Shown in pieces: positions 1,835 to 32,736 of a stretch of DNA of 37,969 bases. Made by a program: the position numbers and the translations under genes. Source of the DNA: a virus. Where the stretch lies: the IMG/VR virus record IMGVR_UViG_3300021139_000051, positions 1 through 37,969 of that record; one strand, given 5' to 3'. Position 1 is the first letter of the stretch; each line of letters begins with the position of its first letter. A model generated the notes under the pieces. The model saw nothing but the letters and a program-made list of their open reading frames with translations. It had not been told where the DNA came from and did not search any database.

Positions 1835-4012
1835 TTAAGGCAGATTGCCTTTATTTGGTTTCTTACGTGTTGATTCGTAGTTTTCAACAGCAGACAACGC
1901 TCCTAACGGGGCGTTTTCTTTTAGTGCTTGACCAGCTTGTTTCATCCACTCTGGGCGCTCTGCAGTAGCAGCTTTCTTAAGCAACGTTTGCATAGGGCGG
2001 TTGTATAGAAGATTAGTACCAGCTATTGTTGCACCACCGAGCATGGCAGGCAGTAAAGGATTTATACCAAAGAGTAAATTAGCCGTTGCGCCGCCACCGG
2101 TAACAGCACCAACACCAGCCAAATTATAAGTAGCTCGTTTTTCTGCGTAGTTACCAACAGGATGAGATTCTACGTCTTTTGCAGTTTGGTTAAGAATATC
2201 TTTTTGAACATCGGTTTTACCTTTAAGAGCATCTTGACGCAACTTAATGTTACGTTGTGCCAGGTCGTTAGATTGTTTTAATAAATCATAGTCCTTAGCT
2301 TTGGCTTCTTCAAATGCTTTTAGATTAGTCTTAATGTAATCTTTCAAACCTTGGCGTTTATCCATTACAGATTTATAGCCTTCTTGTGCCAATTTTTGAA
2401 GTTCACTTTCACCACCAGCTAATCGTGTAGTAGAGGTTTCAGAACTAATAGCACGAAGCAAAGCGTCAGGATTAAACTCACCCTCATTCTTAAGACTAGA
2501 TAAATAAGACCCAGCTTTTTCCGGAATCTTAAATTCAGAGTAGGCTTGGTTAGCTTTTTTAAATAAATCACTGCCAGCCTGACCTTCAATTAAATCCATC
2601 CACTTGTCTTTTAAATCGCCAAGAGCTTTACCGTAGTTGGTATCTAATACGCCACCACTGGTTTTAGCTTTATAAGACTCTTTGCTTAAGTCGCTAAGCA
2701 TGCCTTGCCAGTTTTCTGGAGTCAGCCATCTGTTTTTATTTGTTGTAGCTAACAAGTCATCTACCTTACTTTTAAGTAAAGTATGTAATTGAGAGTCTTC
2801 ACCACCTAAAGAAGATTTGTATTTATCAGCAAAATTTTGCAGATCAGCAATTCTATCTTTGGTCAAACGTAAGTTACCAATTTTATCTAACGCAGTTTTA
2901 TAAGCACCAGATATAGCTTCTTGGGCAGCAGCTAAGGCTTTGTTCCCTGTAACTCCGTCTTCAATTTTTGTACCAATATGTGATAAAGCTCTATTGATAA
3001 ACGGTAGATGGAAACCAGACTCTTCTTCTTTCAAAGCAGCAGCTTTATCAGCATGGTGTGCTTCTATATTAGCCAAAGACTGAGCATGTTGCTGTTCCAA
3101 AGCCTTTGCAGCTTCGTCTTTTGTCTTTTGAGCAGCTAAGTTTAGTGCGTCAATGCCTGTATTCTTTTGCGCTTCTAAAGCAGCAAGTTTGGCGTTAGTC
3201 ATATTTTTTATAGACTTAACACCAGCATTAATTTTGGAAGCAACTCCACCAAATGGTACAGAGTTTAAGAAGTTCTCAACCTTCTGCATACCACCACCAA
3301 GCAGTTGACCTAGTGTGCTGTCTCTTATGATCTGCGCTTTGTCGTAGCCTAACTTCTCTAACTCTTTTAAACGGGCCAGTGCAGGGTCAGCAGCAGCTCC
3401 CAATCCTTTAATGAGTCCGTGTGTACCAGCGCTTAAAGCCGCGCCAATAGCGCCTTCTGTAACTGCTGAACCAGCGTTTGGATCTGCGCCCAAAACACCA
3501 ACACCTGTACCACCCAAAACAGATTGAACCAATGGTCTGTTTGCTACCCAATTAGCAGCAGTTCTAACCGCTGGAACAGCTGATTCAATAGGAGCAGCCA
3601 ACTTACCAGCAACAGTTCCAAAACTTTTTAATCCATACAAATCACCAGCTAGACTGGAGATAGTAGATAAGGGGCTTTGAACACCCATAAATTCTGGGCC
3701 TTGTTGTTTGATACCAACGTCAGCTTGTTTAAGTGCCTGTGCAGGTTGTCCGTAGCCAGCCCACTTAACAACATCAGCAAATGGCTTAGCGATTGCCAAA
3801 CCGGCACGAACAGGAGCGCCAGTTATGTCAGTCATTATTTTAGCCGCAGTCTCACCACCCGCTGGTGCTTGCATGCTGCTAGGAGCAACTAATGGAATTC
3901 CTTCAGGACTGTAAACAGTATCTTGATCAGGTGTAAACTTTTCTGGTGGTGGAGTACCAGCATACTCACGAATACTAGATGGTGCTGCTTCTGTTGCGTA
4001 TTCTCTAGCCAT
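1835..4012 (-). CDS. Candidate ejected internal virion protein (725 aa)
   Basis: No family is recognised with certainty. The protein has two long Gly/Ala-rich hydrophobic stretches, at about residues 159-207 and 629-671, which could insert in or cross a membrane. Between them is a long charged helical region rich in Ala, Lys, Glu and Gln (about 270-620). This build, and its place last in a block of four large proteins of odd composition, fit internal or DNA-ejection proteins of short-tailed phages (the role of P22 gp7/gp16/gp20 or T7 gp14-gp16). The start overlaps the previous stop by one base (TAATG), indicating translational coupling. It is the last gene of its transcription unit and ends directly against the polymerase gene. 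The role is an inference from composition and position. Confidence 0.55.
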   Translation of the reverse strand: MAREYATEAAPSSIREYAGTPPPEKFTPDQDTVYSPEGIPLVAPSSMQAPAGGETAAKIMTDITGAPVRAGLAIAKPFADVVKWAGYGQPAQALKQADVGIKQQGPEFMGVQSPLSTISSLAGDLYGLKSFGTVAGKLAAPIESAVPAVRTAANWVANRPLVQSVLGGTGVGVLGADPNAGSAVTEGAIGAALSAGTHGLIKGLGAAADPALARLKELEKLGYDKAQIIRDSTLGQLLGGGMQKVENFLNSVPFGGVASKINAGVKSIKNMTNAKLAALEAQKNTGIDALNLAAQKTKDEAAKALEQQHAQSLANIEAHHADKAAALKEEESGFHLPFINRALSHIGTKIEDGVTGNKALAAAQEAISGAYKTALDKIGNLRLTKDRIADLQNFADKYKSSLGGEDSQLHTLLKSKVDDLLATTNKNRWLTPENWQGMLSDLSKESYKAKTSGGVLDTNYGKALGDLKDKWMDLIEGQAGSDLFKKANQAYSEFKIPEKAGSYLSSLKNEGEFNPDALLRAISSETSTTRLAGGESELQKLAQEGYKSVMDKRQGLKDYIKTNLKAFEEAKAKDYDLLKQSNDLAQRNIKLRQDALKGKTDVQKDILNQTAKDVESHPVGNYAEKRATYNLAGVGAVTGGGATANLLFGINPLLPAMLGGATIAGTNLLYNRPMQTLLKKAATAERPEWMKQAGQALKENAPLGALSAVENYESTRKKPNKGNLP
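1837..1851. terminator. Short hairpin between convergent genes, possible bidirectional terminator
   Basis: A perfect 6-bp stem (AAGGCA/TGCCTT) with a 3-base loop lies inside the last codons of the minus-strand gene, directly after the polymerase stop. On the plus strand it is followed by TATTTGGTTTCTT, on the minus strand by AATTACTTTC, so the T tract is weak both ways. Its place between two converging genes supports a terminator role, but the stem is short. Confidence 0.45.
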
Positions 4013-5808
4013 TATTTAGGTTCCCGGTAAAAGCCTTTATCATCTATTCCGTATGTGTATTTATTTGGTTCGTATACACCAAAGCGTTTTATAGCTTGGG
4101 ATTCAATACTTGTATTGCTTTTAGGTGTTTCAGCTTTTGAAGTTTTCTTAAAAGCATCTACAGTATTACGGAATATCTTTTCACGCTCGCCAGAGTTTTC
4201 CCAAGCTGTTTCAGCGCCAATCATATCATCTGGGCGAGCACGTAAGAATTTTTCATGAGCCAAATCAACTAATGCTTTAGCTTTTCTGATTTGGTATGTT
4301 GTCTTAATAAACTCATTAGGGTCGCTAATACCAGCAAGAGTCTTTTCAAAGTTTTCAGATTCTTTACCAGTGTATTGTGAGCCCATAGCAGCCTTAGCAC
4401 CAAGAGCAACAGCTTGTTTCTTAACTTGCTCGATATCCAAGTTGCTCATGTAGAATGCTTCTTCTTCTGGACTTAATGGTAAGCCAGCAGCCATTTTGGC
4501 AGCGATAGCACCTTGCTTAATAGTTGATCCTGGACCGCGCTCACCACCTTTAGTAATAGCTTGAAGAACACGGTTTGAAGAATCCACTTCGTCTTGATTG
4601 GTTTTATTATTTGTGACCAAAGTCTTATAAACACTTTCATTAAACGCAGTATTGGCCTGTTTAATGTTTTCGTATCTTTGAGCCACACCTTGAGTAGATG
4701 TGTCTGCAGCAGGAGCAGCTGCAACAGGGGCAGTTCTAGCACCAGCGCTTTGGCGATATTCCCAATGACCAGGATGAACCTCAACCGCACCAGCATCAAT
4801 CAATGCCTGTCTTTGAACTTCAGTTGGTACAAAGTCTTTCTTATAATCAAAAGCAGCGCCTGGGATTTGATGTGCGCTTCTACCAGGTAATGCAACAGGG
4901 TTGCCTTCCTTAGTTAAGTAGTGACCAGGATTGTTTGGGTCTTCATGGTGTATTAAAGACAACTGTTTTGTAGGGTCACGGTCTTCACTAATAATTGCGC
5001 TGCTTGGAAAACCAACATTTCTTGCAACTTGACCCAATGGTGGTCTTTCACCAGCTTTTGGAATCTCGTCAATAGGGTTGTACTCTTGTGTTGCACCGCC
5101 AGGTAGGATACGCTTAGCAGGAGTGTACAAGTTAGGATATAGCTGACGACGTAATAAATCAGCTTTTGCTGGCTCTAATGTATCAATGTACTCCAAGTTC
5201 TTCATCTCATTGGTAGCACCTTTGATAGAATAGTCGGACATTATTTGGTTTAACTTTGCCCAGTCTTGGCTAGCGTAGGCAGCTAAAGCACCGGCTTGCA
5301 TTCTTTTTGGTAGGCTTGCAATATCACGTTGAATGCTACTAGCTCCAAACCCACTTACGCCACCAGCGCCGCCAGTGTTAGTACCAGCACCAGCACCGCC
5401 GTAAATCTTTGCTAATTCTTCATTACGGGCTAAAGAAGTTCTAAGACTTCCGATAGTGCCTAGTGTGTTAATTACTTCTTTGTCTTGTGTATCGTATTGT
5501 GCTTGAGCACGTTGTGCGGCGTCTGGACCGTATGTAGTAGCATACGCCATGTTTAAACCACGCATTAATGGATTTAAAAAGCCTTTGTTCGCATCACGCT
5601 CATCTGCATATTGCTGTAATCGCTCAATAATCTTTTTGGTGGACTCTGCATCCATTGCATTAGCACCGGGTACAGTAATTCCAATACCTTTTGTTGCAGC
5701 AACGTTAGCTGTAGCACCAGGAAGCGAACCAGCTGCAGAAGGAGTTGCTGCTGAGGTATCTGCTTGATCCAACTCTTCTGTTGGTAAATTGCCTTTTGGG
5801 TCTGCCAT
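4012..5808 (-). CDS. Virion/ejection protein with a possible M15-like peptidase segment (598 aa)
   Basis: Member of the four-gene block behind the promoter at 10205-10239, coupled to both neighbours by TAATG overlaps. Most of the protein is unrecognised: a Pro/Ala-rich N-terminus, helical regions, and a Gly-rich linker near 136-157. The segment from about 266 to 351 resembles the core of zinc D,D-peptidases of family M15. It has a Ser-Glu-Asp-Arg stretch followed by Gln (274-281), then SAHQIPGAAFD (311-321), close to the SxHxxGxAxD signature but with one extra residue before Gly. HWEY (348-351) follows, close to the family's terminal HFEY. Candidate zinc ligands are H313, D321 and H348. If real, it would be a virion-carried peptidoglycan hydrolase used at entry. 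The motif spacing is unusually short, so the domain call is tentative; that the gene codes is not in doubt. Confidence 0.6.
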   Translation of the reverse strand: MADPKGNLPTEELDQADTSAATPSAAGSLPGATANVAATKGIGITVPGANAMDAESTKKIIERLQQYADERDANKGFLNPLMRGLNMAYATTYGPDAAQRAQAQYDTQDKEVINTLGTIGSLRTSLARNEELAKIYGGAGAGTNTGGAGGVSGFGASSIQRDIASLPKRMQAGALAAYASQDWAKLNQIMSDYSIKGATNEMKNLEYIDTLEPAKADLLRRQLYPNLYTPAKRILPGGATQEYNPIDEIPKAGERPPLGQVARNVGFPSSAIISEDRDPTKQLSLIHHEDPNNPGHYLTKEGNPVALPGRSAHQIPGAAFDYKKDFVPTEVQRQALIDAGAVEVHPGHWEYRQSAGARTAPVAAAPAADTSTQGVAQRYENIKQANTAFNESVYKTLVTNNKTNQDEVDSSNRVLQAITKGGERGPGSTIKQGAIAAKMAAGLPLSPEEEAFYMSNLDIEQVKKQAVALGAKAAMGSQYTGKESENFEKTLAGISDPNEFIKTTYQIRKAKALVDLAHEKFLRARPDDMIGAETAWENSGEREKIFRNTVDAFKKTSKAETPKSNTSIESQAIKRFGVYEPNKYTYGIDDKGFYREPK

Positions 5809-6932
5809 TATTCTAGTCCTGTAGTTCCAACGCCATAATTTGTGTTAGATGTATCTATTGGTGTAGCTCCAACATTTGTGCTAGCTTGTTGTTGTACATC
5901 TTGATTTGCCATTTGATCTTGTAACTGTTGTGCATTCGCTCCAGATCCAGGGTTCATTGTAATCTGATTGCCAGAAGCATCATAGTTTGTTGCGTTACCG
6001 CTAGCATCATAAATGGTTTGTGTTCCATCAGAATTCATAACAACTGAACCACCGCCGTCTAATGGATAAGTTGTTGCACCAGTTGTTGGATCTGTTGTTC
6101 CGGTATTACCGCTAGTTGATATATTTGCTCCGTTAGCGGCAGTTGTTTTAGCACTTCCAGGAACCAAACCACTAAGTCCTAAAGTAGTTAATAAACTCTT
6201 ACCTGCCGCAGTATTGTTTAAGGCCGATAATCCACCAGTTAGCACATTACCAAGAGATGTTACTTGACCTAGAGGTGCAAGTTGTTTTTGACTTGTAACT
6301 GTTGTTGGTGCTTGCAATGTGCCTAACAAACTGGCCAAGTTACCAACTGTTTGGAATGGTGCATTTTGTTGAGCCAAACCAACGTTCATTGCGGAGTTAA
6401 TACCTTGTGAACCAACGTTGCCTAAGTTAGCAGCTGCAGCCTGACCTGTTTGTTGGTTTTGCAGCGCAGCAGCCATTTGCTGGGATGTAAGATTGGAGAA
6501 CGCATCGGCTTTAGCTTTATCTACAGCAGTCTGACCACGTAAGCTACCAAAATTACCAGAACCAATAGCGCTAGCATTTGCACCAGCGGTGTAGTTAGGA
6601 AGCAGTTGGTTTAATTGTTGATTCTCAGCTTGGAACAAACCGCCCATAGCTGTTTGAGTGTTTGGTGTTACATTACCAGAAGCGTCAGTAATCCAAGGAT
6701 TAGCTGCGCCGCTAGAGATTTGCTGCAGAGTTCCTTGGGCTTGGGTAAAAGGATTGCTAGGGCCTTGCAGTGTATTAATAGCCTGCTGCGAAGTTGTATT
6801 CGCCATTGTAGGCGCCGCAACAGCTGCTTGAGTCCCTTGATTAACGATTGCCTGTTGTGCTTGGTCATACCAAGCCGGCATCGTAGTGGTTGTTTGTTGG
6901 GAATCGGATAATAAATTATTTAATCCAGCCAT
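5808..6932 (-). CDS. Ala/Gln/Asn-rich candidate internal virion protein (374 aa)
   Basis: A low-charge protein rich in Ala, Gln, Asn, Thr and Gly, without a recognised catalytic motif. The N-terminal half has Gln-rich helical stretches (about 20-90 and 150-200). The C-terminal part is Gly/Thr/Asn-rich with short repeats of the type YDASGN (two copies, separated by four residues), suggesting an extended or beta-rich tail. The start ATG lies two bases after the stop of the upstream 1085-aa gene, and the end overlaps the next start by one base, so it sits inside a tightly coupled four-gene unit. Composition and context suggest it is packed in the head or tail lumen and ejected. No homologue is named. 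Confidence 0.55.
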   Translation of the reverse strand: MAGLNNLLSDSQQTTTTMPAWYDQAQQAIVNQGTQAAVAAPTMANTTSQQAINTLQGPSNPFTQAQGTLQQISSGAANPWITDASGNVTPNTQTAMGGLFQAENQQLNQLLPNYTAGANASAIGSGNFGSLRGQTAVDKAKADAFSNLTSQQMAAALQNQQTGQAAAANLGNVGSQGINSAMNVGLAQQNAPFQTVGNLASLLGTLQAPTTVTSQKQLAPLGQVTSLGNVLTGGLSALNNTAAGKSLLTTLGLSGLVPGSAKTTAANGANISTSGNTGTTDPTTGATTYPLDGGGSVVMNSDGTQTIYDASGNATNYDASGNQITMNPGSGANAQQLQDQMANQDVQQQASTNVGATPIDTSNTNYGVGTTGLE

Positions 6933-6934
6933 GA

Positions 6935-9900
6935 TTAGCCTACCTTACGTTTTGCGTCTAATAAATATGCGAGGGCGCCCTTACTATCGGGCGGTAAATT
7001 TTTTGCATCCGCAGCACGTTTGTGCTCACGAATTGTTTTTAAGAACTCATCTAATACTTCTGCGCCAGCGTCATTGCTGCCGTTACCTAAATCGGATACT
7101 ACATCAGCTGGAATTACAAACTCACCTTTAGCCAACATAGCAGCTACGCTATCGCTAGTGCCGTCACCGTCACCTTTGACATAGGTATTTTCTAAAGAGT
7201 TTAAACCACCAACACTAAAAAACTGTGGGTTGTGACCGTCTGGCATTCCTTCTGGTTGTCCACCAACAGCAAAACGTTGAGGCTGATATCCAGGAAGTTG
7301 AGCGCTACCAAAATGTCCAAATGGTTGAAAACTATGTCCTTTAACTACACTAGCACGTAGATAGGGAGATGGTTCGTCAGGCATTTGAACAGTTTGACCC
7401 GCAGCGTAACCTGGTACGGAACCACCAGTTGCTGCAGCTAAAATGCTTTGTGAAGTGGCAGAAGGGGTTGCCATAATAGGAGCTATGACATTTGATGCAA
7501 AAGTAGGATTGCTGGAAAAAGTAAACTTTTTGCCTGCAGTTGTGGTTGTAGGCTTTAAATCAGCTATATCTGTACTTGCTGTATTTGTAGAACCGCCTGT
7601 AGAAGCACTCATAATTTCAGTCGCATAGTCTGGTTGATTAGTTATTTGTTGTGGTGCCGGTGTTAATTGAGCAGTAAACGTCGGCTCATTAGCAAACTTA
7701 AATTGTGAACCTTTAGTTAATCCAGGTGTTAAATCTTTAATATCACTTGATACTGCTGCAGTAGTAGGAACTGTTGTAGCTAAAGCAGGAATTATACTAC
7801 TAGTTGTACTACCTGGTGTAGTCGTTGTTTTTGTGGTAGTTGTTTTTATTCCTGTACCACCAGTTACGCTACTTGAACCACCTGTGCCTGTGCCTGTGCC
7901 ATCTGTACCGGTTCCAGGACCATTTAAATAGTTAGTACCAGCTAGTGTGCTTAAAGAGTATGTCGGGTTTGTTCCTCCAGAACCCTTTAATCCTGTCATA
8001 TAATCTTGCCACAATTTATCTAATTGAGCTTGATTAGAATCTACTGGTGCAGCTAAAGGATTTCCTTCGGCATCAAATTGTTTAACGGTACCGTCTGCGT
8101 ATGTGTTTGTTACGTTGCCAGTAGTTGGGTCTGTAACTTGGGACTTTAACGTAGGCGTTGTAACAGGAACCAATGTACCACCAGCTCCCACATCAGTTGT
8201 AGTAGATGGCGCTCCTGTTACTGTTACACTTTGTGCAGTTGGATAATACTGCGGTAAGTCTTTAGCACCAGCTGTTGCAATAAAATTATTAATCTGGTCC
8301 GGAGTAATAGTAGCACCAGTTGACTGCGCAAATTGCTGAACAATCTGGTTAAAACCATCATTAACTAACTGCGCATTCTTTTGAGCATCTGTTTTTTCAG
8401 CGGGGGTTAGTGTATTGTCATTCTTAATTGCATCTTTAACAGCAGTAACACCTGGCTGAATTAAATTCTGTGATACCAAGTTACCAATAATTTGACCCAT
8501 GCTATTAGTAATAGCTTGTTGTGGATCTTTATTGTTTAATGCAGCAGTTGTACCAACACGTGCAATTGTTGAAACAGAACCCGCAACTTTGTTTAATATG
8601 TCCGAATTTAAATTATTTAATACGTTTCCTGTATAATTTCCAACAGCTGTGGATGCTAAGTTATTAGCAATTAATGTTGCAATATCACCTTTACCAGATG
8701 CCGCTGCGGATACACCGGTTGATACTGAGTTAGTAATTAAATTAGCTACTTGAGCTTGCGTCATTTTTGTAGCTTCTGCAATTGTATTTAAAGTGCTTTC
8801 GCCCACTAAACCTTTTGCAATATCTACTGAGTTGGCACCAACTGCACCGCCTATAGCACCCATCAAGGCTGCTTTACCAACATCTCCACCACTAATACCA
8901 GCCATCAAAGCAGATGTGGCGGACCCAAGCAAAGTTGAACCCAGTGTAGCTGCTCCCGTTGTAGCAGCTGTACCACCTAAAATAGCGCCACCTAATTCCG
9001 CCGCTAATGGAGCCATAGTGCCAGCACTTAATGCTGAGGCTGCAATCATACCTAGTGTAGTCCAACCACCAGGCACTGCAGAGCTTACGCTCTTGTCTAA
9101 GTTGGCTAAGTTGTTTGTTACAAAACCTAATGGGCCTTGACTGCCTTGTGGGCCTGGGTCATATACTGTAGGTATACCAGATGTACTCTGAACTACTTTA
9201 CCAGCAGTTGGGTCATACTGCAATGTTGGTGTTTCAACTTTAACTAACTGACCATTAAACATTGTGTAGCCAGGGTTATCTGCTACAGCCATAGAACCTT
9301 GTGACTGCCTGTAATTGCTCACAGGAGGCGTTACATGGTCGACAGAGCCGTCTTTGTTCACCAATGCGGTAGAGCCATCAGAGAAGTAATAAACAGCCTG
9401 TGTGCCCTGTGCGTTGGCCATTTTAGTGCCAATCACTTTACCATTTGGTGTAAACGAATTTGTAGTAGCACTATTTACTGTACTCGCAACATCTGTTGGA
9501 ACAGTAGTGCCACTATTTAATGCGTTTGCTACTTGATTGGCGTCTACTTTGTAGGCACCAAAAATGTTATCATTTAACGTGCCATCTGCAGCAGCTTTTA
9601 AAACCGCTGGGTTTGTAATACCAGCTTTTATTAACTGAGTTGGTGTTACACCACTCCAGTCACCTGCAGCAGTATTAACTGCTGTAGAACCAGTTTGACC
9701 GTAGCTGTTTGCTATAGCTGCAGCCATGGATTGTTCTTGAGAAGCTGGTATGTTATTTGCTTTAGCTTCTGGAGAACTAGCAAAACTTGCAGCTAATTGC
9801 TGCGGAGTAACAACACCGCTATTAAGCGCGTTTAAATTAGTTTGAAACCCTGCTGCGTCTGGAGCCCTACCTAAAACTGCTCGGTATAAAGCAGTTACGT

Positions 9901-10192
9901 AATCTCGGTTTATGCTACTTGTCTGGTCTGTTTGTCCAGAATCAGAACTAGGAGCAGAAGCAACACTTGGAGGAGCTGCTTGAAAAACCTGCTGTGCAGC
10001 CGCCTGTTCTTGGGCAGCTGGAATGTTATTACTTTGCGCTTCAGCACTATTGGCAAAATCTGCAGCCAAGGTGGACGCGTCAACAGCCCCAGACTGAAGG
10101 GCTGCTAAATTATCAGCAAAACCTTGAGGATCTGGAGCTCGACCTAATACGCTTGTGTATAGGTCATAGACGTATTGTTCTTGATCTGTCAT
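6935..10192 (-). CDS. Large virion protein with two DUF4214 repeats and a phage C-terminal motif (1085 aa)
   Basis: First gene of the last block. The N-terminus carries two copies of a DUF4214-type repeat (about 7-60 and 98-151). Each contains VLGRAPD, a following Gly-Phe and an SG turn, and ends NNIPA(A/S)QEQ; the copies are exactly 91 residues apart. The middle has a Gly/Ala-rich hydrophobic region (roughly 375-470), then a Thr/Gly-rich linker. The last 79 residues begin GDGDGTSDS and contain GEFVIPADVVSDLGNGS. I recognise this motif as recurring at the C-terminus of phage tail or ejection proteins; its function is unknown. The ATG is only about a dozen bases after the promoter's TATA box and has no visible Shine-Dalgarno sequence. 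A tail-lumen or ejected protein is likely but unproven. Confidence 0.65.
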   Translation of the reverse strand: MTDQEQYVYDLYTSVLGRAPDPQGFADNLAALQSGAVDASTLAADFANSAEAQSNNIPAAQEQAAAQQVFQAAPPSVASAPSSDSGQTDQTSSINRDYVTALYRAVLGRAPDAAGFQTNLNALNSGVVTPQQLAASFASSPEAKANNIPASQEQSMAAAIANSYGQTGSTAVNTAAGDWSGVTPTQLIKAGITNPAVLKAAADGTLNDNIFGAYKVDANQVANALNSGTTVPTDVASTVNSATTNSFTPNGKVIGTKMANAQGTQAVYYFSDGSTALVNKDGSVDHVTPPVSNYRQSQGSMAVADNPGYTMFNGQLVKVETPTLQYDPTAGKVVQSTSGIPTVYDPGPQGSQGPLGFVTNNLANLDKSVSSAVPGGWTTLGMIAASALSAGTMAPLAAELGGAILGGTAATTGAATLGSTLLGSATSALMAGISGGDVGKAALMGAIGGAVGANSVDIAKGLVGESTLNTIAEATKMTQAQVANLITNSVSTGVSAAASGKGDIATLIANNLASTAVGNYTGNVLNNLNSDILNKVAGSVSTIARVGTTAALNNKDPQQAITNSMGQIIGNLVSQNLIQPGVTAVKDAIKNDNTLTPAEKTDAQKNAQLVNDGFNQIVQQFAQSTGATITPDQINNFIATAGAKDLPQYYPTAQSVTVTGAPSTTTDVGAGGTLVPVTTPTLKSQVTDPTTGNVTNTYADGTVKQFDAEGNPLAAPVDSNQAQLDKLWQDYMTGLKGSGGTNPTYSLSTLAGTNYLNGPGTGTDGTGTGTGGSSSVTGGTGIKTTTTKTTTTPGSTTSSIIPALATTVPTTAAVSSDIKDLTPGLTKGSQFKFANEPTFTAQLTPAPQQITNQPDYATEIMSASTGGSTNTASTDIADLKPTTTTAGKKFTFSSNPTFASNVIAPIMATPSATSQSILAAATGGSVPGYAAGQTVQMPDEPSPYLRASVVKGHSFQPFGHFGSAQLPGYQPQRFAVGGQPEGMPDGHNPQFFSVGGLNSLENTYVKGDGDGTSDSVAAMLAKGEFVIPADVVSDLGNGSNDAGAEVLDEFLKTIREHKRAADAKNLPPDSKGALAYLLDAKRKVG

Positions 10193-10243: not shown

Positions 10244-10507
10244 TCAACGACTTGGGCCATTAATTATTTCTGTAAAATCTTTAGCCCATTCTTGCCAAGT
10301 ATCGTATGTTGCAGGGGACGGAACCGGATATGTGCCAAAAGTCTCGGATAAAACGATGTTCATGGCGCCGTATTTCCAGTCTTCCTCTGGAGAAAACTCG
10401 ATGTTCTTTTGACCATAATAAATAGCCAAATTACCGTTCCAGTTTTCCCATGTCATATAGTCTGGCAAACATGGAAAAAACTGCTGAAAATTCTTAGGGG
10501 CGCTCAT
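10244..10507 (-). CDS. Small conserved-looking phage protein, unknown (87 aa)
   Basis: A small acidic, aromatic-rich protein (many Trp, Tyr and Phe) with no recognised motif. The chosen start is the ATG at 10507, which overlaps the end of the tail hub gene by 14 bases. A TTG two codons upstream (10513) would add two residues, but ATG is preferred. The tight overlap with the upstream structural gene and the promoter just downstream make it the last gene of the neck/hub block. It may be a minor tail component or assembly factor; nothing in the sequence decides. Confidence 0.7.
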   Translation of the reverse strand: MSAPKNFQQFFPCLPDYMTWENWNGNLAIYYGQKNIEFSPEEDWKYGAMNIVLSETFGTYPVPSPATYDTWQEWAKDFTEIINGPSR

Positions 10508-12659
10508 CGCCAAACTCAGCCGTAATCATATTACGACCCATTTCAAAGTTACCATCAATTTCATTAGAAATAAATTGTAGGCGGACTAAACGGTATTCTA
10601 CACGAAGGTCAATTTTACCTGTGTCTTGGTTAAAATAATATGGACCGGAAACTTCTTGCATAGGGCTACCAGCAAACTTACGACCCAAAATATTCATACT
10701 CATAGTACCGGTTTGTAAAAAGTTAGGCTCAACTCGGCGTATGTGCATACGACGGTTAACACCAACTAAACCATCTTGGCTTGGGGTGCCAGTTAACCAA
10801 CCAATATCACTGGTAGTAATGCTAGAATATATTGCGGTTTCACCAAGCAAACTTATTTCGTTTTGACCGTACTCATGCTGCCAAATATTAAATCCACCAG
10901 CCACGCTAAATACAGACTGCCCAACAGTAGGACTTGGAACAAAATTTTTAGCAACAGTTATTAGAGTAACACCTGGTGGGACTACAGTGGTATTATAAAT
11001 GTTTGTGCTATTTGTAATAACGTATGTTTTATTAAAGCTATTTGTATTAGTAAATGATACTGAGTCACCAGGACTAAAACCAACAGTTTGGTCTCCTGCT
11101 AAATAAAACTGATTAGCATTTGGAGCCGGCAAACTTGCTGGGTGTGCAATGACATTAAATGTTTTGCTAAATACAGGATTGTAATTCCAATCAGCCCAAA
11201 TAGGCGTTGGAAAAATTTCTGTTGTATAACCGCAAGAGCGTTGTGCTCCAATTGCTTGTCCAGCATCATACCAAAGTTTATCTTTGACGTTATAAATAAT
11301 TGCGTCAGTACATTCAGTAGCAGTACCACGTGGGTAAAAGAACCAAATCTCGTTGTATCTAGGGATTTTAGTAGCCCAAACTTTTTGGCGCTGCTCGTAA
11401 TTAAGGTTGTTAAACAACCAGTTTACGTTCTTGTCGTTTGGCAATACTTGCACTGAGCCGTTGTATAGATAGAAACGGTCAACACCCATCCAGAAATAAA
11501 TACCATCCATCTCCGCAACAGCGTTGGAAGACATGATAGAGATTTGGCTAGAAATAATATCGTATGTCCAGTAGATTCCAGTTGCTTGGGAGTTAAAGGA
11601 AGCACGAATAAGGGAGTCAGTAGCCCAAAATAAACCAGATGGTGAGTTAGTACCACCACGCATTGGCATACCTTTTACAATCTTGGACGATGCTACGTTT
11701 ACCTGGTTAGCAAATGTACCGTTCCAATCGTAAGGGCTTTGGTTAGCGTAAGTGCTGTCTACGTTGTTATTAGCAATAAATCCGCTTGAGCCGTAAACAA
11801 ATATGAAAGGGTAAAGAACGCAAACACCACCATCAACACTAATTGGTTTGTATGTTGGATTTTGACCAGCACTATCAGATAGGCCAGTAAAGTTCCAAGT
11901 ATCTGTAGAGTCAGGCGTAATATTGCCAATAAGAACCTGGCTTACAACACCGTTATCAATGTTTGCTAAGTTGTATCCGGGATGTGCTAATACTTGAAGG
12001 TTGCCACCAGATGGGCTAAAGATTGAATCAAACTGCCAAGTAACACGGTAGTTACCAATAGATGGGTCTGTTTGAGTGCTTGAATCAGGAATAAATACAG
12101 GAGTGTTGTCAATCCATACTTTAGTTGGTGTACCAGGGATAGATCCGCCAGTGACGTTAACTGTAGTGTTTGGTGTGGAGAATGTAGACGTGCTTACTGT
12201 AAAAACAGTAGGTGTGCCCGTTTGGGTAAAGATAACTTTAGTGCCTGTAGGGAATAAAGCTGTCCGGTTTCCAGCTACAACAAAAGATGATGTTGTATTA
12301 GAAACCAATGGTAGGTATGTGGTTCCAGGAAGGATATTGGCTTTAAACGGACCACTACCAACAGCGTATGTGGTACCGGTAGTAAATACATCGAGCTCTT
12401 GGTAGTTACCAGCAAAAATGTAGTTCACTCCGTTAAACGGCTGAGCAATCATTCCACGGTAAATACCTACAAGACTTTGAAACAGTGTGCGGTAGCCACC
12501 TATCTTTTTAGGATCGCCACGCTGAAAACGACACCACACACCATCGGTATACTGGTCGTTTTGAAACTGAGTACCATCACGCTTGATACCCGCTGGAATA
12601 GCCAGTGAGTAAATTGAGGTATATTGTGATGTGTCCTGTTGCTGATTATCAGCCGCCAT
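10494..12659 (-). CDS. Tail hub / DNA-stabilisation-type structural protein (721 aa)
   Basis: A large beta-rich protein full of Thr, Asn, Gly and aromatic residues. The N-terminal region reads as an IP.GIKRDGT stretch followed by GVWCRFQRG and KIGGYR (about 22-56). I associate this with phage stabilisation or tubular-tail-B-like proteins (P22 gp10 type), which bind below the neck and seal packaged DNA. Further along are repeated short loops with Trp, Tyr and Asn, as expected for a propeller or beta-rich tail hub. It abuts the fibre-like 422-aa gene (stop directly followed by ATG) and lies just after the adaptor genes, the expected location for a hub. The exact family is uncertain; a structural tail role is likely. 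Confidence 0.6.
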   Translation of the reverse strand: MAADNQQQDTSQYTSIYSLAIPAGIKRDGTQFQNDQYTDGVWCRFQRGDPKKIGGYRTLFQSLVGIYRGMIAQPFNGVNYIFAGNYQELDVFTTGTTYAVGSGPFKANILPGTTYLPLVSNTTSSFVVAGNRTALFPTGTKVIFTQTGTPTVFTVSTSTFSTPNTTVNVTGGSIPGTPTKVWIDNTPVFIPDSSTQTDPSIGNYRVTWQFDSIFSPSGGNLQVLAHPGYNLANIDNGVVSQVLIGNITPDSTDTWNFTGLSDSAGQNPTYKPISVDGGVCVLYPFIFVYGSSGFIANNNVDSTYANQSPYDWNGTFANQVNVASSKIVKGMPMRGGTNSPSGLFWATDSLIRASFNSQATGIYWTYDIISSQISIMSSNAVAEMDGIYFWMGVDRFYLYNGSVQVLPNDKNVNWLFNNLNYEQRQKVWATKIPRYNEIWFFYPRGTATECTDAIIYNVKDKLWYDAGQAIGAQRSCGYTTEIFPTPIWADWNYNPVFSKTFNVIAHPASLPAPNANQFYLAGDQTVGFSPGDSVSFTNTNSFNKTYVITNSTNIYNTTVVPPGVTLITVAKNFVPSPTVGQSVFSVAGGFNIWQHEYGQNEISLLGETAIYSSITTSDIGWLTGTPSQDGLVGVNRRMHIRRVEPNFLQTGTMSMNILGRKFAGSPMQEVSGPYYFNQDTGKIDLRVEYRLVRLQFISNEIDGNFEMGRNMITAEFGDERP

Positions 12660-13931: not shown

Positions 13932-14546
13932 TTAGGGTTCCTGTACCGAAGTGTTACGATCCACGCGGCGAGAATTATCTTCGTTTTTAAGAGCGGAAAT
14001 TGCGTCTGTATAGTAGCCTTTCCAAACAGGCAACTTATCCAACGCTTTTAAATATCCTTGTGCTTGCAATAGCGCACCGTACAACATAGCTTGTGGTGCA
14101 ATAGCTGTCCACAAATTTTGTTGGTTAGACGCATCTAACGGCTGAACTTCAGCGTAGTAAATGATTTCCACTGGATATGATTTGTCCGGGGCTGGAGCAA
14201 AATTCCAGTTATTAAAATCATATTCAGAATAGTAAGCTGGTTGACCATTAGAAGATTCTGATAAGTATTGTGCTACGTAATCTTGGCTACGAAGCAAAAT
14301 AGGTTTACCATTGACTTTCATAGACACAGTCTTACGCCAACGAGATGGTTTATTAAGCACCGTCTGGTTGGTAGCTAGACTTGTTTCTACTACGATAAGC
14401 TGGAGGTATGTCTTTAACTCCGCGGCAATGGATGATTCAGCCAACGCAATAAGGTTAGGAATCTGCGCAACGAAGTCTGCGTCATCACGCTCCATGTATT
14501 GCTGGATGTTTAACACCAGCGAATCGTAGGTCATTATTACGCTCAT
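13932..14546 (-). CDS. Head-tail adaptor-like protein (204 aa)
   Basis: A mainly helical protein whose start overlaps the stop of the upstream neck gene as ATGA. The N-terminal part is helical and acidic with a pattern of the kind IALAESSIAAELKT. A central strand-rich region includes YPVEIIYYAEV. The C-terminal helical part (AIAPQAMLYGALLQAQGYL and following) resembles phage adaptor/connector proteins of the SU10/gp6-like kind that bridge portal and tail. Its place next to another neck protein supports this. An alternative ATG four codons in (MTYDSL) exists, but the overlap favours the first. The family assignment is moderate. Confidence 0.6.
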   Translation of the reverse strand: MSVIMTYDSLVLNIQQYMERDDADFVAQIPNLIALAESSIAAELKTYLQLIVVETSLATNQTVLNKPSRWRKTVSMKVNGKPILLRSQDYVAQYLSESSNGQPAYYSEYDFNNWNFAPAPDKSYPVEIIYYAEVQPLDASNQQNLWTAIAPQAMLYGALLQAQGYLKALDKLPVWKGYYTDAISALKNEDNSRRVDRNTSVQEP

Positions 14547-16606: not shown

Positions 16607-16645
16607 CCTACTTATACTAATGCAAAAAACAGGGTGTTTACGCCC
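16607..16645 (-). promoter_or_regulatory. Phage promoter-like element, copy 2 (neck/hub block)
   Basis: Minus-strand reading: GGGCGTAAA, 20 bases ending TGCATTAG, then TATAAGTAGG. The upstream box overlaps the stop codon of the lysozyme gene. It precedes the 265-aa cationic protein gene with a leader of about 35-40 bases. Sequence and spacing match the other copies. Confidence 0.78.
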
Positions 16646-17156
16646 CTAAAAACAGTGCTCTTTCACGTTTTCTTCGGTTTACCAAGACTTCTGGCTTGTT
16701 CCACATAAGGATCGCATCCGCGGCTCCTTGTAGGTCATTTTCATTGATCTTTTTGACCACGGTAGACTTAGCAAAATTAGTGCCTCCAATATTGAAGCAG
16801 AGGCTGTATAAGGCGTCAAATTGATGCTGGGCTAGGGGTACCTTCACCGAGCTCTCAACGGCCTCGCTACACCATTTTAAATCCTTCCTAAGCAGCTCTT
16901 CTACCTCTTCGTCTGTCAGGGTTGCGGTAATGAGGTGTTGCTCATCGGCTTTGATCAGGTGACCCACGCCAATGGTCCATAGTCCTTTGGAGTCCTTGTA
17001 TGCCTTATTACGGGCGCCTTCTTCTTTGGTAATGAAGTCTAGGGTTGATTTTGCGATTGCCATGATATTTTCTTCAATTTGGGTAAATCGGTCTGTGAAG
17101 TGGATAGCGGCTGCAATGCCTAATACCCACATCAGTACTACAAATAGCTTTTTCAT
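16638..17156 (-). CDS. Endolysin, GH24-type lysozyme with N-terminal membrane/SAR segment
   Basis: Peptidoglycan muramidase for host lysis. The catalytic triad of the T4/P22/lambda-type lysozyme family is intact: Glu46, Asp55 and Thr61 in the order E-x8-D-x5-T, followed by IGVGH. The length (172 aa) is usual. Residues 5-20 form an Ala/Gly-containing hydrophobic stretch after two Lys, as in signal-arrest-release endolysins, so export by the host secretion system and release on membrane depolarisation is plausible. An internal ATG at Met32 would give the soluble form, but AAGGAG six bases before the first ATG supports the longer product. It lies right after the spanin pair and has a degenerate copy of the promoter-like element upstream. 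Confidence 0.92.
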   Translation of the reverse strand: MKKLFVVLMWVLGIAAAIHFTDRFTQIEENIMAIAKSTLDFITKEEGARNKAYKDSKGLWTIGVGHLIKADEQHLITATLTDEEVEELLRKDLKWCSEAVESSVKVPLAQHQFDALYSLCFNIGGTNFAKSTVVKKINENDLQGAADAILMWNKPEVLVNRRKRERALFLGA

Positions 17157-19394: not shown

Positions 19395-20417
19395 TCACCT
19401 CGCATTAGCGAATTTCGTTGGATTCTCGGCAAATGCCATGTAGATATATGTACCACCAGATGCGTTTATATTTGAACCAGATGATCTAATTTTAAATCCG
19501 TTTGATAAAAAATCAAATCCGTTATCAGAAGATTCAGCTAATGAATCATTTGGATAAAGTGCTAAGTCAACTAAATTATAAGTATTTCTAGTGCTATCCA
19601 TTGTTACCCAATAGCTAGTTGTATCAGTTCTTTTTCTTAATACAAACTTAGGTCTAAACCCTGTGTATACAAATGGACCGTCAGCAGAACCATTACCTGT
19701 ATAGCTACCAAACTGTGAGAAGCCAGCTACGGGTGCCCAGCAGTATGCTACCATTGTTGCACTAGCATCATAATTACTACCAAGACCAGCAAAACTCATA
19801 ACTGTACTTGTCGGTGCTGTGTTATTAAAAATAGTTCTTGATGCGGATGCGCCAGTTGATTGAAGAAAAACTGAGTTAGTTGCACCTAAACTTTGATGAT
19901 ATACAGCCCATCCTGATGTTGCACTTCTTTGTTTAGTAATAATCATTGCTGGCGCAACACCAAGCCCATGACCTACTGTCCAAGAAGAGCCTGAAGCTGG
20001 GTTTGTATAAGTAACAATACTAAATCCAGCGGTTGCATTTACACTTACTGTGGATGTAACAGATCCATTGTTGTTGGTTGATGTTGATCCTTGTCCAGCT
20101 TGCCATTGCCAAGCAACCATAGATGCTCCATTGCTATTACCGCCAGCATCAGATCCAACAGTAAATCCACTAGAGTCAAATGATGTAACACCAGAATAAG
20201 TAGCTTCGGCATCAGATAAATTTGATGCTAAAAATTTAGTTGTTCCACGAACAGAGTCAAAAAGACCATTATTGTAGGTATTTGAACGACCTTTATACCA
20301 AACAAAATCAGGTTTAAAGCTACCAGCATTGGTTACTGATAGAGATGATCCATTACCAGTATAGGTAGTAGCATCCATTACTGTCCGACCGTTGGGGATT
20401 GCGTATGTTGTTGGCAT
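19395..20417 (-). CDS. Tail fibre protein with repeated beta modules (340 aa)
   Basis: I set the start at the ATG at 20417 (protein MPTTYAIPNG...), four bases after the stop of the upstream adhesin. The longer frame to 20540 would overlap that gene by 119 bases. Three related blocks can be seen: FKPDFVWYK (near residue 34), GLGVAPAMIITKQR and FRPKFVLRKR. Each has a short hydrophobic strand with Pro and a following Lys or Arg, and the first and third are preceded by a TGNG turn. These resemble domains found in fibre proteins of uncultured phages alongside LamG and SPRY modules. It is probably a receptor-binding or fibre-tip protein partnered with the 1188-aa protein. Confidence 0.65.
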   Translation of the reverse strand: MPTTYAIPNGRTVMDATTYTGNGSSLSVTNAGSFKPDFVWYKGRSNTYNNGLFDSVRGTTKFLASNLSDAEATYSGVTSFDSSGFTVGSDAGGNSNGASMVAWQWQAGQGSTSTNNNGSVTSTVSVNATAGFSIVTYTNPASGSSWTVGHGLGVAPAMIITKQRSATSGWAVYHQSLGATNSVFLQSTGASASRTIFNNTAPTSTVMSFAGLGSNYDASATMVAYCWAPVAGFSQFGSYTGNGSADGPFVYTGFRPKFVLRKRTDTTSYWVTMDSTRNTYNLVDLALYPNDSLAESSDNGFDFLSNGFKIRSSGSNINASGGTYIYMAFAENPTKFANAR

Positions 20418-20421
20418 AGTC

Positions 20422-23400
20422 TTATAGGTTGTAAGTGTTAAGTCCAACATACCCTGCTGGTGGCGTATACGCCCAAGGTTGTTGACCAAAGTTAACAGAG
20501 AATCCTTCTCCGCCTGATGAGTTATATGCTCCACCAGCAAAGAAGAAGCTACCAGTAATACCTGTTGCGGCTACGCCTTGGCTTGTTCCATTTTTATAGA
20601 ATGTAATTGTGCCAGCACCAGCATCAAATGCTACTCCAATAACATCATTTACTGTATAGGATGTTCCGTATGCAGAGTTTGTGTTGTTGTAGTAAAGACC
20701 ACTGGAATTGTAATACGCATAAGATGGCGTAAAAATCCAAAAACGAGAATCGGCCACATTCGCATTAAACGTACTTCCAACTATTCCATACATAGCATTT
20801 GAACCAGATTGGAAAGTAAATTCAGCATAGAATTTACCTGTTCCATTCATCGCCATAGTGGAGCAAATTGATTTCCAAGTTGCGTTTGCAGAGCTATTAA
20901 ATGTTAAGTTTCCGTTATATGAAGTTGAACTACTTGGAATATCCAATGGGTTCAATACTGCATAGTTTGCCTGTGTTGTGCTGGTCAGCGTTGGGACGTC
21001 GGTCATGGTGTCAAGTGTATAGCCTGTTGTCTGACCGATGTTGTTAGCTGTCCAGTTGTTGCCAGCTGGGCCAAAGTCTGTAACTGTATTGGCAAGGATG
21101 GCAAATGGGTATGTTGCTGCAGTTGACACAGAACCGTTGTTGGTGATTGAGAACGCATTTGATGAATTATCAACAATAGTAGCGTTTTGCAATGTCAACA
21201 AAGATGTTCCGCTTACATTGGTCAACGGTGTTGTAGAAGGTGTAAAGCTGTTTGTATATAAGCCAGTACCTTTTACAATACGCACGTTGGAGATGTAGCC
21301 CGGTGTGTATTGGGCACCATTATTCTCTCCACCGATTGACTGAATCTGTGTTCCTGTTAAATTGGTTGAATCTGTGTTAGTGGATTGCAATACCCCGTTA
21401 ATAAACATCTTTAACGATGAGCCTGTTCTGGAAACAGCCAAGTGATACCAGTTGTTTGCACTAACTGTTCCGCCTGTCCAAGTGCCACCAGCGGTAATGA
21501 AACGGAATGTACCACCAGCGAGAATCTGGAATGTATAAACCTGACCACCAGAACCACCCCAACGAGCAATTAATGTTGGGTTATAGCCGGGGCTAACGTT
21601 AGTAACGTATGCCCAACATTCAATCGTAAAGTCGCCGGGTAAGTCAAATGCTGAGTTGTAAGCAGCAGTTAAATACTGGCTAGAACCATTAAACGAGCCA
21701 GCATAAGACTGAGTTGCAGTCATCGGCAAATAAAAGCCATTTGTGCCGTAGCTGCCGCCGTAGTTAATTGGTTGCCATACACCGTAGCTGTTAAATGTGC
21801 CAAATGCAGTAGGGGCTAGTGCTTGACCGTCGATGAACTGAACATTAGCCATGTAGCCGTCAAAGTAGAAATTATAACTTCCTGTATAGTTTTCATAACC
21901 AATTTTTATTAATTTACCTGCTGTGTTGTATAGCCAATTTCCTGTCACTGCAGAACTTGATGCAAATGATGTTACTTGAACGCCATTTACATACAATTTA
22001 GGCACTGAAGAAGCTGAACAAGCAACAACAATGTGATACCAAGCTGCTGGGTCACGATAAACAGCATTTGTAATAATTCCTTGTTCCCCGCCACCAGCAT
22101 AATTATTAATAATTCGAATTTGGTCTGAACTTGTAAAATCTAAAACACTATAATTTGAAGTATCAGTAAAGGAATTAAATAAACCTTGGTAAGCCCCAAA
22201 CTGACCTCTTTTTACCCACGCACTCCAAGTCCAAGTAGTTTGGTTACTTGTTACTGTTGGTGTGCGTGATAAGTATGCAGAGTTGCTTGAACGAAAACGC
22301 AATGAGTTGCCGACATAGGTCAACGGTGTTAAGTATCCGCTTGATGTAAACGTGTGGATTACATTGCCACCAGTGATCGTAACTGTACCGCCAGCCATTT
22401 GTTGAGTAGTGCCTGCGTAGCTAATGATTACGATGCCTGAGCCGCCAGCGCCGCCCGAGTCAGGTGGGACGTTGAAGTTACCGCCACCGCCACCGCCGGT
22501 GTTAGCTGTACCAGAGTTTGGTGTGCCGCTTTGTACACCAGAGCCGCCGCCTCCGTTACCACCAGTTCCTTGCGTTCCGCTATATGCACAACCGCCGCCG
22601 CCGCCAGCGTAATATTTAGATGTGCCAGATATAGTGGATGCTACACCAACACCACCATTACCGCCAACAGAAGTACCTGATGCGTTACCGCCAGCAGCAC
22701 CGGCACCGCCGCCACCACCTCCCGGCGAACCGCCTACGCCGTTGTTAAAGCCACTACCACCAGAGTAACCTTGACCAGAAGTAGCGGAACCGCCTGTGCC
22801 TTGACCAGCGCCTGATCTAGCACCGCCACCGCCGCCTGAACCGCCAGAAAGACCGTTCCACACGGCACTTGAAGCGCCGTATCCGCCCGCACCGCCGCCA
22901 CCGACAGCTGCTGTGGAAACTACTGCAAAGGAAGAATTTGCACCGCTAGTGCCTTGACCATCGGTAGTAGCACCTGCACCACCAGCACCAACGGTTACTA
23001 AGTATGTGGAGTTAGTGTCAATGGTTGTACCAGAGCCTGATAATAGACCACCAGCACCGCCACCACCTACTGCACCGCCACCACCACCAGCTACAATTAA
23101 ATAGCTTGCAGTTAAAGAATTTAATGGGGTGAGTGTGCCCGATGTGTTAAATGTGTGGATAGTATTTCCACCCACGGATGTGACGATACCGCCACCAAAT
23201 TGTTGTGCGCCAGCATAAGAGATGATGACTACACCTGAGCCACCTTGTCTACCAAGGTTTGCTCCGTTGCCATAACCACCGCCACCACCACCACCGCCTA
23301 AATTAGCAGTTCCTGCAGTTGCATTGTTATTTTGATTTGAACAACCAGTACCTCCACCGCCCGTACCTCCAGTGCCACCAGTGTATCCAGAAGCGCCACC

Positions 23401-32295: not shown

Positions 32296-32736
32296 TTAAT
32301 CTACAAACGCCTTCATCTTCTGCGCATACTCAAACGACTTAATGCAAGAGATGATTTCACGTGCCTGTAACGTAATAAACACCACTGGGGCGCCTTCGTC
32401 TTCGGGCTGAACAACAAAACGGTCACCGCCGTACTTGATAGTACGTACTAGATCACCTTCTTTACACCAAGGGCCTTCTGGCCATGGAGATAATTCTGCG
32501 TCTAGGTTACGGTATGCCAGCGGTCCAATTTGGATCACTTTAGCTACAGTTTCATTGAAACGTATCGTCTGTCTGGTTTCATCTACTAGGATGATTCCAC
32601 CTTTGCTGGTATTCTTTTCCCTGCGTAACTGCACAAGTACTCGGTCTCCAGCCACTTCAACGCCAGTATCGATTACAGGAAAACATTCTTCCTCTGATCG
32701 TGTATCCGGCTCTTCATTTCCTTTTAAATCAAACAC
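32296..32736 (-). CDS. Phage co-chaperonin, GroES/Cpn10-like (146 aa)
   Basis: The core matches Cpn10: GDRVLVQLR (30-38), a mobile-loop-like stretch with SKGGIIL (44-50, compare SAGGIVL in GroES), then a VAKVIQIGPLAYR strand, EGDLVRTIKYGG (93-104) and a C-terminal strand. A roughly 28-residue acidic N-terminal extension precedes the core, and an insert of about 18 residues (74-92, Pro/Trp-rich) is where GroES has its roof loop. By analogy with T4 gp31, it would cap host GroEL to fold the capsid protein. Its place in the head module between portal and scaffold supports this. The start is a GTG with AGGAG nine bases upstream. Confidence 0.88.
   Translation of the reverse strand: MFDLKGNEEPDTRSEEECFPVIDTGVEVAGDRVLVQLRREKNTSKGGIILVDETRQTIRFNETVAKVIQIGPLAYRNLDAELSPWPEGPWCKEGDLVRTIKYGGDRFVVQPEDEGAPVVFITLQAREIISCIKSFEYAQKMKAFVD

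Follow-up and report, generated by a model that had tools for sequence, protein, structure and literature searches.

The described systems closest to the segment analysed here are the M15B-type enzymes VanY, VanXY, and LdcB (Pfam PF02557), the M15 phage endolysins Ply500 and LysB4, and the wall hydrolase domains of phage ejection proteins. In M15 enzymes, the spacing from the first His ligand to the Asp ligand is usually 7 (HxxGxAxD), and in VanX-type enzymes an acidic residue is found three positions before the third ligand. Ply500 and LysB4 are lysis enzymes acting on L-Ala-D-Glu. T7 gp16 is an ejection protein with wall-degrading (transglycosylase) activity, and the ejection protein of K1E bears a lysozyme. 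Large proteins of Pseudomonas phages Lu11 and HRDY3 and of Campylobacter phage CPX (CDS spans of about 1168, 843, and 871 aa) contain a short M15 domain, with 30-31 residues from the Asp to the third His and a normal ExxH in which the acid base is kept. These phages, at 133-314 kb, are much larger than the one described below. In the accessible part of a study on ejection proteins, both the presence of wall hydrolase domains and the swapping of domains between ejection proteins are described (PMC8954989). According to the part of the source that was available, the clan MD protein VldE (Spr1875) has a zinc site formed by H301, D308, and H375, accompanied by an Arg, and an HxH motif with Asp372 at position -3 (PMC11667670).

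The window, i.e., the whole stretch of 37,969 nucleotides that was analysed, is the uncultured virus record IMGVR_UViG_3300021139_000051. Its genes for an SU10-type adaptor, portal, terminase, and family A DNA polymerase, together with the gene order, fit a short-tailed phage. The gene under study encodes a 598-aa protein and belongs to a series of large late genes that comes after the adaptor and stabilization genes, an arrangement that is syntenic in relatives (Table 1). Among bacterial genomes, the only match of the 721-aa virion protein was L193, a contig of 4088 bases from a beta-proteobacterial MAG, with 63% identity; it is a weak hint of a beta-proteobacterial host, too weak for a host assignment.

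Table 1. Features of the window and of the 598-aa protein. L-numbers denote loci of relatives.
Feature	Position	Strand	Basis or remark
725-aa downstream neighbour, candidate third ejection protein	1835..4012	(-)	homologues after the slot gene in L002, L004, L019, L020, and L074
Slot protein, 598 aa, candidate ejection protein	4012..5808	(-)	ORF; syntenic large ORF in relatives
C-terminal part, residues 375-598	4015..4686	(-)	mostly predicted helical
Low-confidence linkers on either side of the M15-like module, residues 229-253 and 354-378			full-length model
M15-like module, residues ~255-352	4753..5046	(-)	five-relative profile 5e-12; model pLDDT 86.3; 60% identity with that of L181
His348, candidate third zinc ligand	4765..4767	(-)	13/13 modules
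His345, position -3 from the third ligand	4774..4776	(-)	Asp/Glu in 11/13 modules; L181 shares the His
Asp321, candidate second zinc ligand	4846..4848	(-)	13/13 modules
His313, candidate first zinc ligand	4870..4872	(-)	13/13 modules
Arg277	4978..4980	(-)	counterpart of the M15 S-x-x-R arginine; 13/13 modules
N-terminal part, residues 1-230	5119..5808	(-)	mostly predicted helical past residue 53 (full-length model)
374-aa upstream neighbour, slot marker gene	5808..6932	(-)	homologues in 139/188 loci
1085-aa protein with two DUF4214 stretches	6935..10192	(-)	Pfam 1.5e-22; directly upstream of the candidate ejection genes
721-aa virion protein, "stabilization protein" in relatives	10494..12659	(-)	PHROG 3287, 6e-25
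SU10-type adaptor	13932..14546	(-)	Pfam SU10_adaptor 3.9e-20; points to a short-tailed virion
Phage lysozyme (GH24-type), 172 aa, separate endolysin candidate	16638..17156	(-)	Pfam Phage_lysozyme 5.6e-36
HNH endonuclease with resolvase-type helix-turn-helix, 154 aa	18927..19391	(-)	flanked by virion genes
381-aa protein	19395..20540	(-)	DUF7483 match across almost the entire length, 9.2e-113
GroES-like co-chaperonin	32296..32736	(-)	head gene region; PHROG 3188, 7.1e-10

In the original prediction, residues 266-351 of this protein were proposed to contain an M15-like zinc D,D-peptidase segment. The mapping to nt 5013-4756 of the minus strand agrees with the ORF, and all the named residues are in place (I272-I273-S274, R277, Q282, S311, H313, G317, D321, E343, H348, W349, and E350). 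Taken alone, the 598-aa protein matched no family in Pfam, PHROGs, or NCBIfam and nothing in viral contigs or phage records, and its search against PDB chains returned only two aldolase sequences with an E of 0.74. The module searched against phage records gave no clear match (best E 0.4). The segment alone reaches VanY with an E of 0.081 and 13.2 bits, below the curated cut-off of 25. Among 20,000 shuffled versions of the protein, none matched a loose pattern for the full residue series and 11 matched the core S-x-H..G..D..H-aromatic pattern alone. Because the pattern was composed after the sequence had been seen, these counts are only a rough guide, and it is homology that carries the case.

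Since direct searches were empty, relatives were reached via the neighbouring 721-aa and 374-aa genes. The 721-aa protein search provided loci from the best 80 of 157 relatives, the 374-aa gene provided 19 loci and its alignment the best 80 of 191 relatives, these sets overlapping, and nine further loci came from an alignment of the slot proteins. The window's own copy (L001) was left out. A homologue of the 374-aa gene is present in 139 of the 188 loci gathered, and it is followed by a large ORF of 532-760 aa in 123 of these 139; the other 16, several of which end near there, have none. The 123 ORFs represent 76 distinct proteins, a number that includes overlapping loci of one contig and near-identical pairs such as L184/L185; with the window, 77 slot proteins were compared.

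At an E of 0.01, Pfam assigns SLT (lytic transglycosylase) to 19 of these 77 proteins, VanY to 7, GH108 to 2, and M23 to 2. The SLT domain of L026 occupies residues 264-362, matching the place of the window segment. M23 was recognised by pattern in L127 and L133 and GH108 by reading in L164 and L177, consistent with the Pfam counts. The M15-like module occurs in 13 of the 77 (12 of 76 relatives plus the window). These modules were initially recognised through an H..D..H-aromatic pattern, and a module profile run against 12,547 translated ORFs recovered the same genes and no others, the profile having been built from those same 13. An M15-type fold had been expected to be unusual in such a position; this stands in part, although the module recurs in the slot of this phage group. 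The proposed ejection role is backed by the gene order and by these other wall hydrolases at the same place. Relatives also match one PHROG annotated as tail injection transglycosylase and one annotated as internal virion protein with endolysin domain, matches whose source may be the SLT domain alone.

Another recurring mid-protein module could be told apart by reading; its motifs are NPGN and W-(S/A)-P..EN/ES-T (NPGN / RWAPPNENDT). It is found in L004 (L004:14853-15164), L024, L027, L019, L050, L072, L089, L090, L092, L136, L142, and others; the members scanned matched no Pfam family, and it is possibly another wall-active domain. Further slot proteins showed on reading a Pro/Ala-rich stretch or other sequence and no recognisable hydrolase (L011, L015, L017, L036, L041, L043, L120, L132, L138, L141, L143, L152, L163, L178, L182, and L186). 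In L017, L036, and L041, the slot protein is followed by an extra gene of about 310-325 aa.

The homology of the window segment to M15 domains is established through the relatives. The Pfam VanY cut-off of 25 is passed by L098 (25.4), L179 (30.7), and L184 (32.4). In shuffle comparisons, the window module scores a Z of 20.5 against the L002 module and of 8.5 against the Pfam-positive L098 module, and six non-M15 modules used as controls give values of -0.7 to 0.3. When a profile is built from L098, L116, L124, L179, and L184 only, it detects the window ORF, which was left out of it, at 5e-12; the runner-up among 170 window ORFs has an E of 0.86. The link to M15 profiles is made by way of the relatives, while the segment by itself stays under the curated cut-off. 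The Z to L098 and the profile match indicate common descent with sequences that pass that cut-off. Against the PDB, a 7-sequence profile matches VanXY at 2.1e-6, and M15 enzymes are the best 12 of its 15 matches; a 3-sequence profile (window, L002, L020) retrieved no M15 structure from the PDB, so this link rests on the remaining relatives. L031, in which only 5 residues separate His and Asp, shows no pairwise match to the window (Z -0.5) and is joined solely via L002, L098, L074, and the profile; it is the least certain of the 13 modules.

The structure model of the module is consistent with these comparisons. M15 enzymes fill rows 1-18 of the 37 in the structural list, with Z values of 6.1-4.5, which are modest, all being below 8; Ply500 and LysB4 (6.1 and 5.8) are tied for the best match. 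Row 19 is an unrelated PulM domain (3.9), followed by VldE (3.3) and by Hedgehog domains from 3.0 down. Although these Z values are modest, the model points to a Hedgehog/D,D-peptidase fold; the best Foldseek match is weak (VanXYc, 5.4e-3, TM 0.45). The full-length model is poor (pLDDT 59.7), and the module is its best-modelled part, lying between the linkers and the helical arms. The structural list for this model contains helical rows only and no M15, an absence given no weight because single domains can be missed at 598 residues. Regarding a resemblance to the ejection proteins T7 gp14-16 or P22 gp7/16/20, the many helical rows include one chain of the cyanophage A4 pre-ejectosome (Z 6.4, from this same low-confidence model). 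Weak matches in a viral structure library include an LT_GEWL protein of 664 aa (4.6e-8) and one of 608 aa labelled "Peptidase M15B" (0.033). It might be supposed that the likeness to M15 is accidental and that the segment serves as a structural linker, given that the window protein alone lacks a database family match and its spacing deviates. However, the shuffle scores with flat controls, the match from a window-excluding profile, and the M15 folds at the top of the structural list already disfavour such an origin, which is to be regarded as very unlikely.

The upstream S-x-x-R followed by His, Asp, and His in M15 order corresponds to R277, H313, D321, and H348, and the three His/Asp positions are candidate zinc ligands supported by relatives, profiles, and the predicted structure. 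Loss of these residues in homologues, which would have counted against the proposal, was not seen: H, D, and H are kept in 13 of 13 modules, a conservation that is partly by construction because the modules were recognised by the H..D..H-aromatic pattern. Two spacings had called for caution, namely, 8 residues from H313 to D321, one more than usual, and 27 from D321 to H348. This concern is largely answered by the relatives, in which the first distance is 7 in 8 of 13 modules and 5-10 overall and the second is 25-30. The missing acid at position -3 matters more than these deviations. An Asp or Glu stands three residues ahead of the third ligand in 11 of the 13 modules, and in the window and L181 this position is a His. 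Neither Glu343 nor Glu350, suggested earlier as the possible base, lies at this position, which is His345. The assignment of D,D specificity is likewise unsupported, as nothing separates the segment from L-Ala-D-Glu or other M15 specificities.

Compared with VanY, VanXY, and LdcB, the module has the same order of R, H, D, and H, its best profile matches, and the fold in common; it differs by a much shorter third part, an H-D distance longer by one residue, the His in place of the acid, and its embedding in a large phage protein. The L098 module matches the large proteins of Lu11 (2e-7), HRDY3 (7e-8), and CPX (1e-6). VldE has a similar zinc site with Arg and, going by the available part of its description, an H-D spacing of 7 (301/308); its HxH motif, in contrast to the H-P-G-H of the window, is accompanied by the acid at -3. 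Because the window shares M15 descent and fold but lacks the canonical spacing, the acid, and the curated score, the module is named M15-like rather than a proven M15 peptidase.

The absence of the acid raises the question of activity. The window and L181 modules could be M15-derived but catalytically dead, with a zinc site kept for stability or stem peptides bound, while either the host or a different protein opens the wall. This would fit the replacement of the acid by His in these two modules only and the apparently module-free slot proteins, which imply that the slot enzyme may be dispensable. On the other hand, all three ligands and the Arg are retained, and the window and L181 modules differ far less at nonsynonymous than at synonymous sites (dN 0.29 versus dS 1.57 over 95 codons, with dS near saturation), which suggests that the sequence is constrained. 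In addition, the other modules of the slot belong to wall-hydrolase families, and the lysozyme is the sole other wall hydrolase recognised among the window proteins scanned. Overall, loss of catalysis appears rather unlikely.

The slot protein is built as a mosaic. Over nt 1-788 and nt 1162-1863, the L002 and L004 genes are 87% identical in DNA, with no identity in between. The counterparts in L024 and L027 are 79% and 75% identical to the inner stretch of L004, and nothing else in those two genes aligned. Comparison with six relatives divides the window protein, too, into three parts of different affinity, and the DNA matches agree. Its N-terminal part is closest to L002 and L004 (52-53% identity, versus 28-29% for L020, L074, L181, and L019), its module to L181 (60%), and its C-terminal part to L020 (56%, followed by L074 with 46% and by L002, L004, L019, and L181 with 24-33%). 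The other hydrolases at the same place, the 87% identical flanks around unrelated inner sequences, and the mosaic together indicate that the segment is an exchangeable wall-hydrolase module. A broader and still tentative reading, which we consider possible though doubtful, is that in short-tailed phages of this group the slot of the likely ejection protein is fixed and that at least four unrelated wall-enzyme folds (SLT, M15, M23, and GH108) are exchanged in it by recombination, and that the window and L181 belong to an M15 branch where the role of the catalytic acid has passed to a His (H-x-G-H).

Since relatives carry unrelated wall-cutting enzymes at this place, the segment most likely helps the phage to open the host wall. 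We consider it probable that it represents a zinc peptidase domain of divergent, M15-like type (clan MD), an exchangeable module of a likely ejection protein that opens the wall at infection. The module would sit between two mostly helical arms of an internal virion protein, which would be packaged in the virion and leave with the DNA at infection. With zinc presumably bound by the three candidate ligands, the module would cut peptidoglycan stem peptides so that a conduit could cross the wall, and catalysis may proceed via His345 or another residue in place of the usual acid. From wall chemistry, it can be reasoned that an endopeptidase cut would be needed for the mesh to open and that a pure carboxypeptidase would be insufficient. 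Final lysis would fall to the lysozyme, whose separate gene makes a lysis role for the module less needed.

It is also conceivable, if distinctly improbable, that the protein is not ejected and that the module works from the tail or as a second lysin at lysis. Indeed, the ejection role is deduced from gene order and the hydrolase slot, and M15 enzymes are frequent among phage endolysins, as reported in the portions of two sources that were available (PMC12031403, PMC10589892). However, the gene lies in the run of large genes past the adaptor and stabilization genes, the lysozyme gene is apart, and the relatives match injection and internal virion PHROGs, possibly through the SLT domain alone. 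Ply500 and LysB4 differ in the same respect, as they are lysis enzymes whereas the window phage has its own lysozyme gene. With a wall hydrolase domain inside a probable ejection protein, the preferred reading resembles T7 gp16 and K1E; those proteins bear a transglycosylase or lysozyme, while the module described here is M15 peptidase-like and located mid-protein, and other families take its place in relatives.

It is already known that ejection proteins can carry wall hydrolase domains and that these are swapped (PMC8954989), and the 608-aa viral "Peptidase M15B" is present in a public library. No description of an M15 domain in an ejection protein was found in the literature, which was covered in part; as far as that coverage shows, it is new that an M15-like module recurs in this slot, that it is exchanged with three further Pfam families, and that it has an H-x-G-H branch. 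The modules are small, and the His-for-acid M15 branch, if true, would be a new active-site variant. The slot bears on why phages switch their wall-opening enzyme: constant flanks around a changing enzyme constitute a natural experiment in which the type of enzyme can be set against the chemistry of the host wall.
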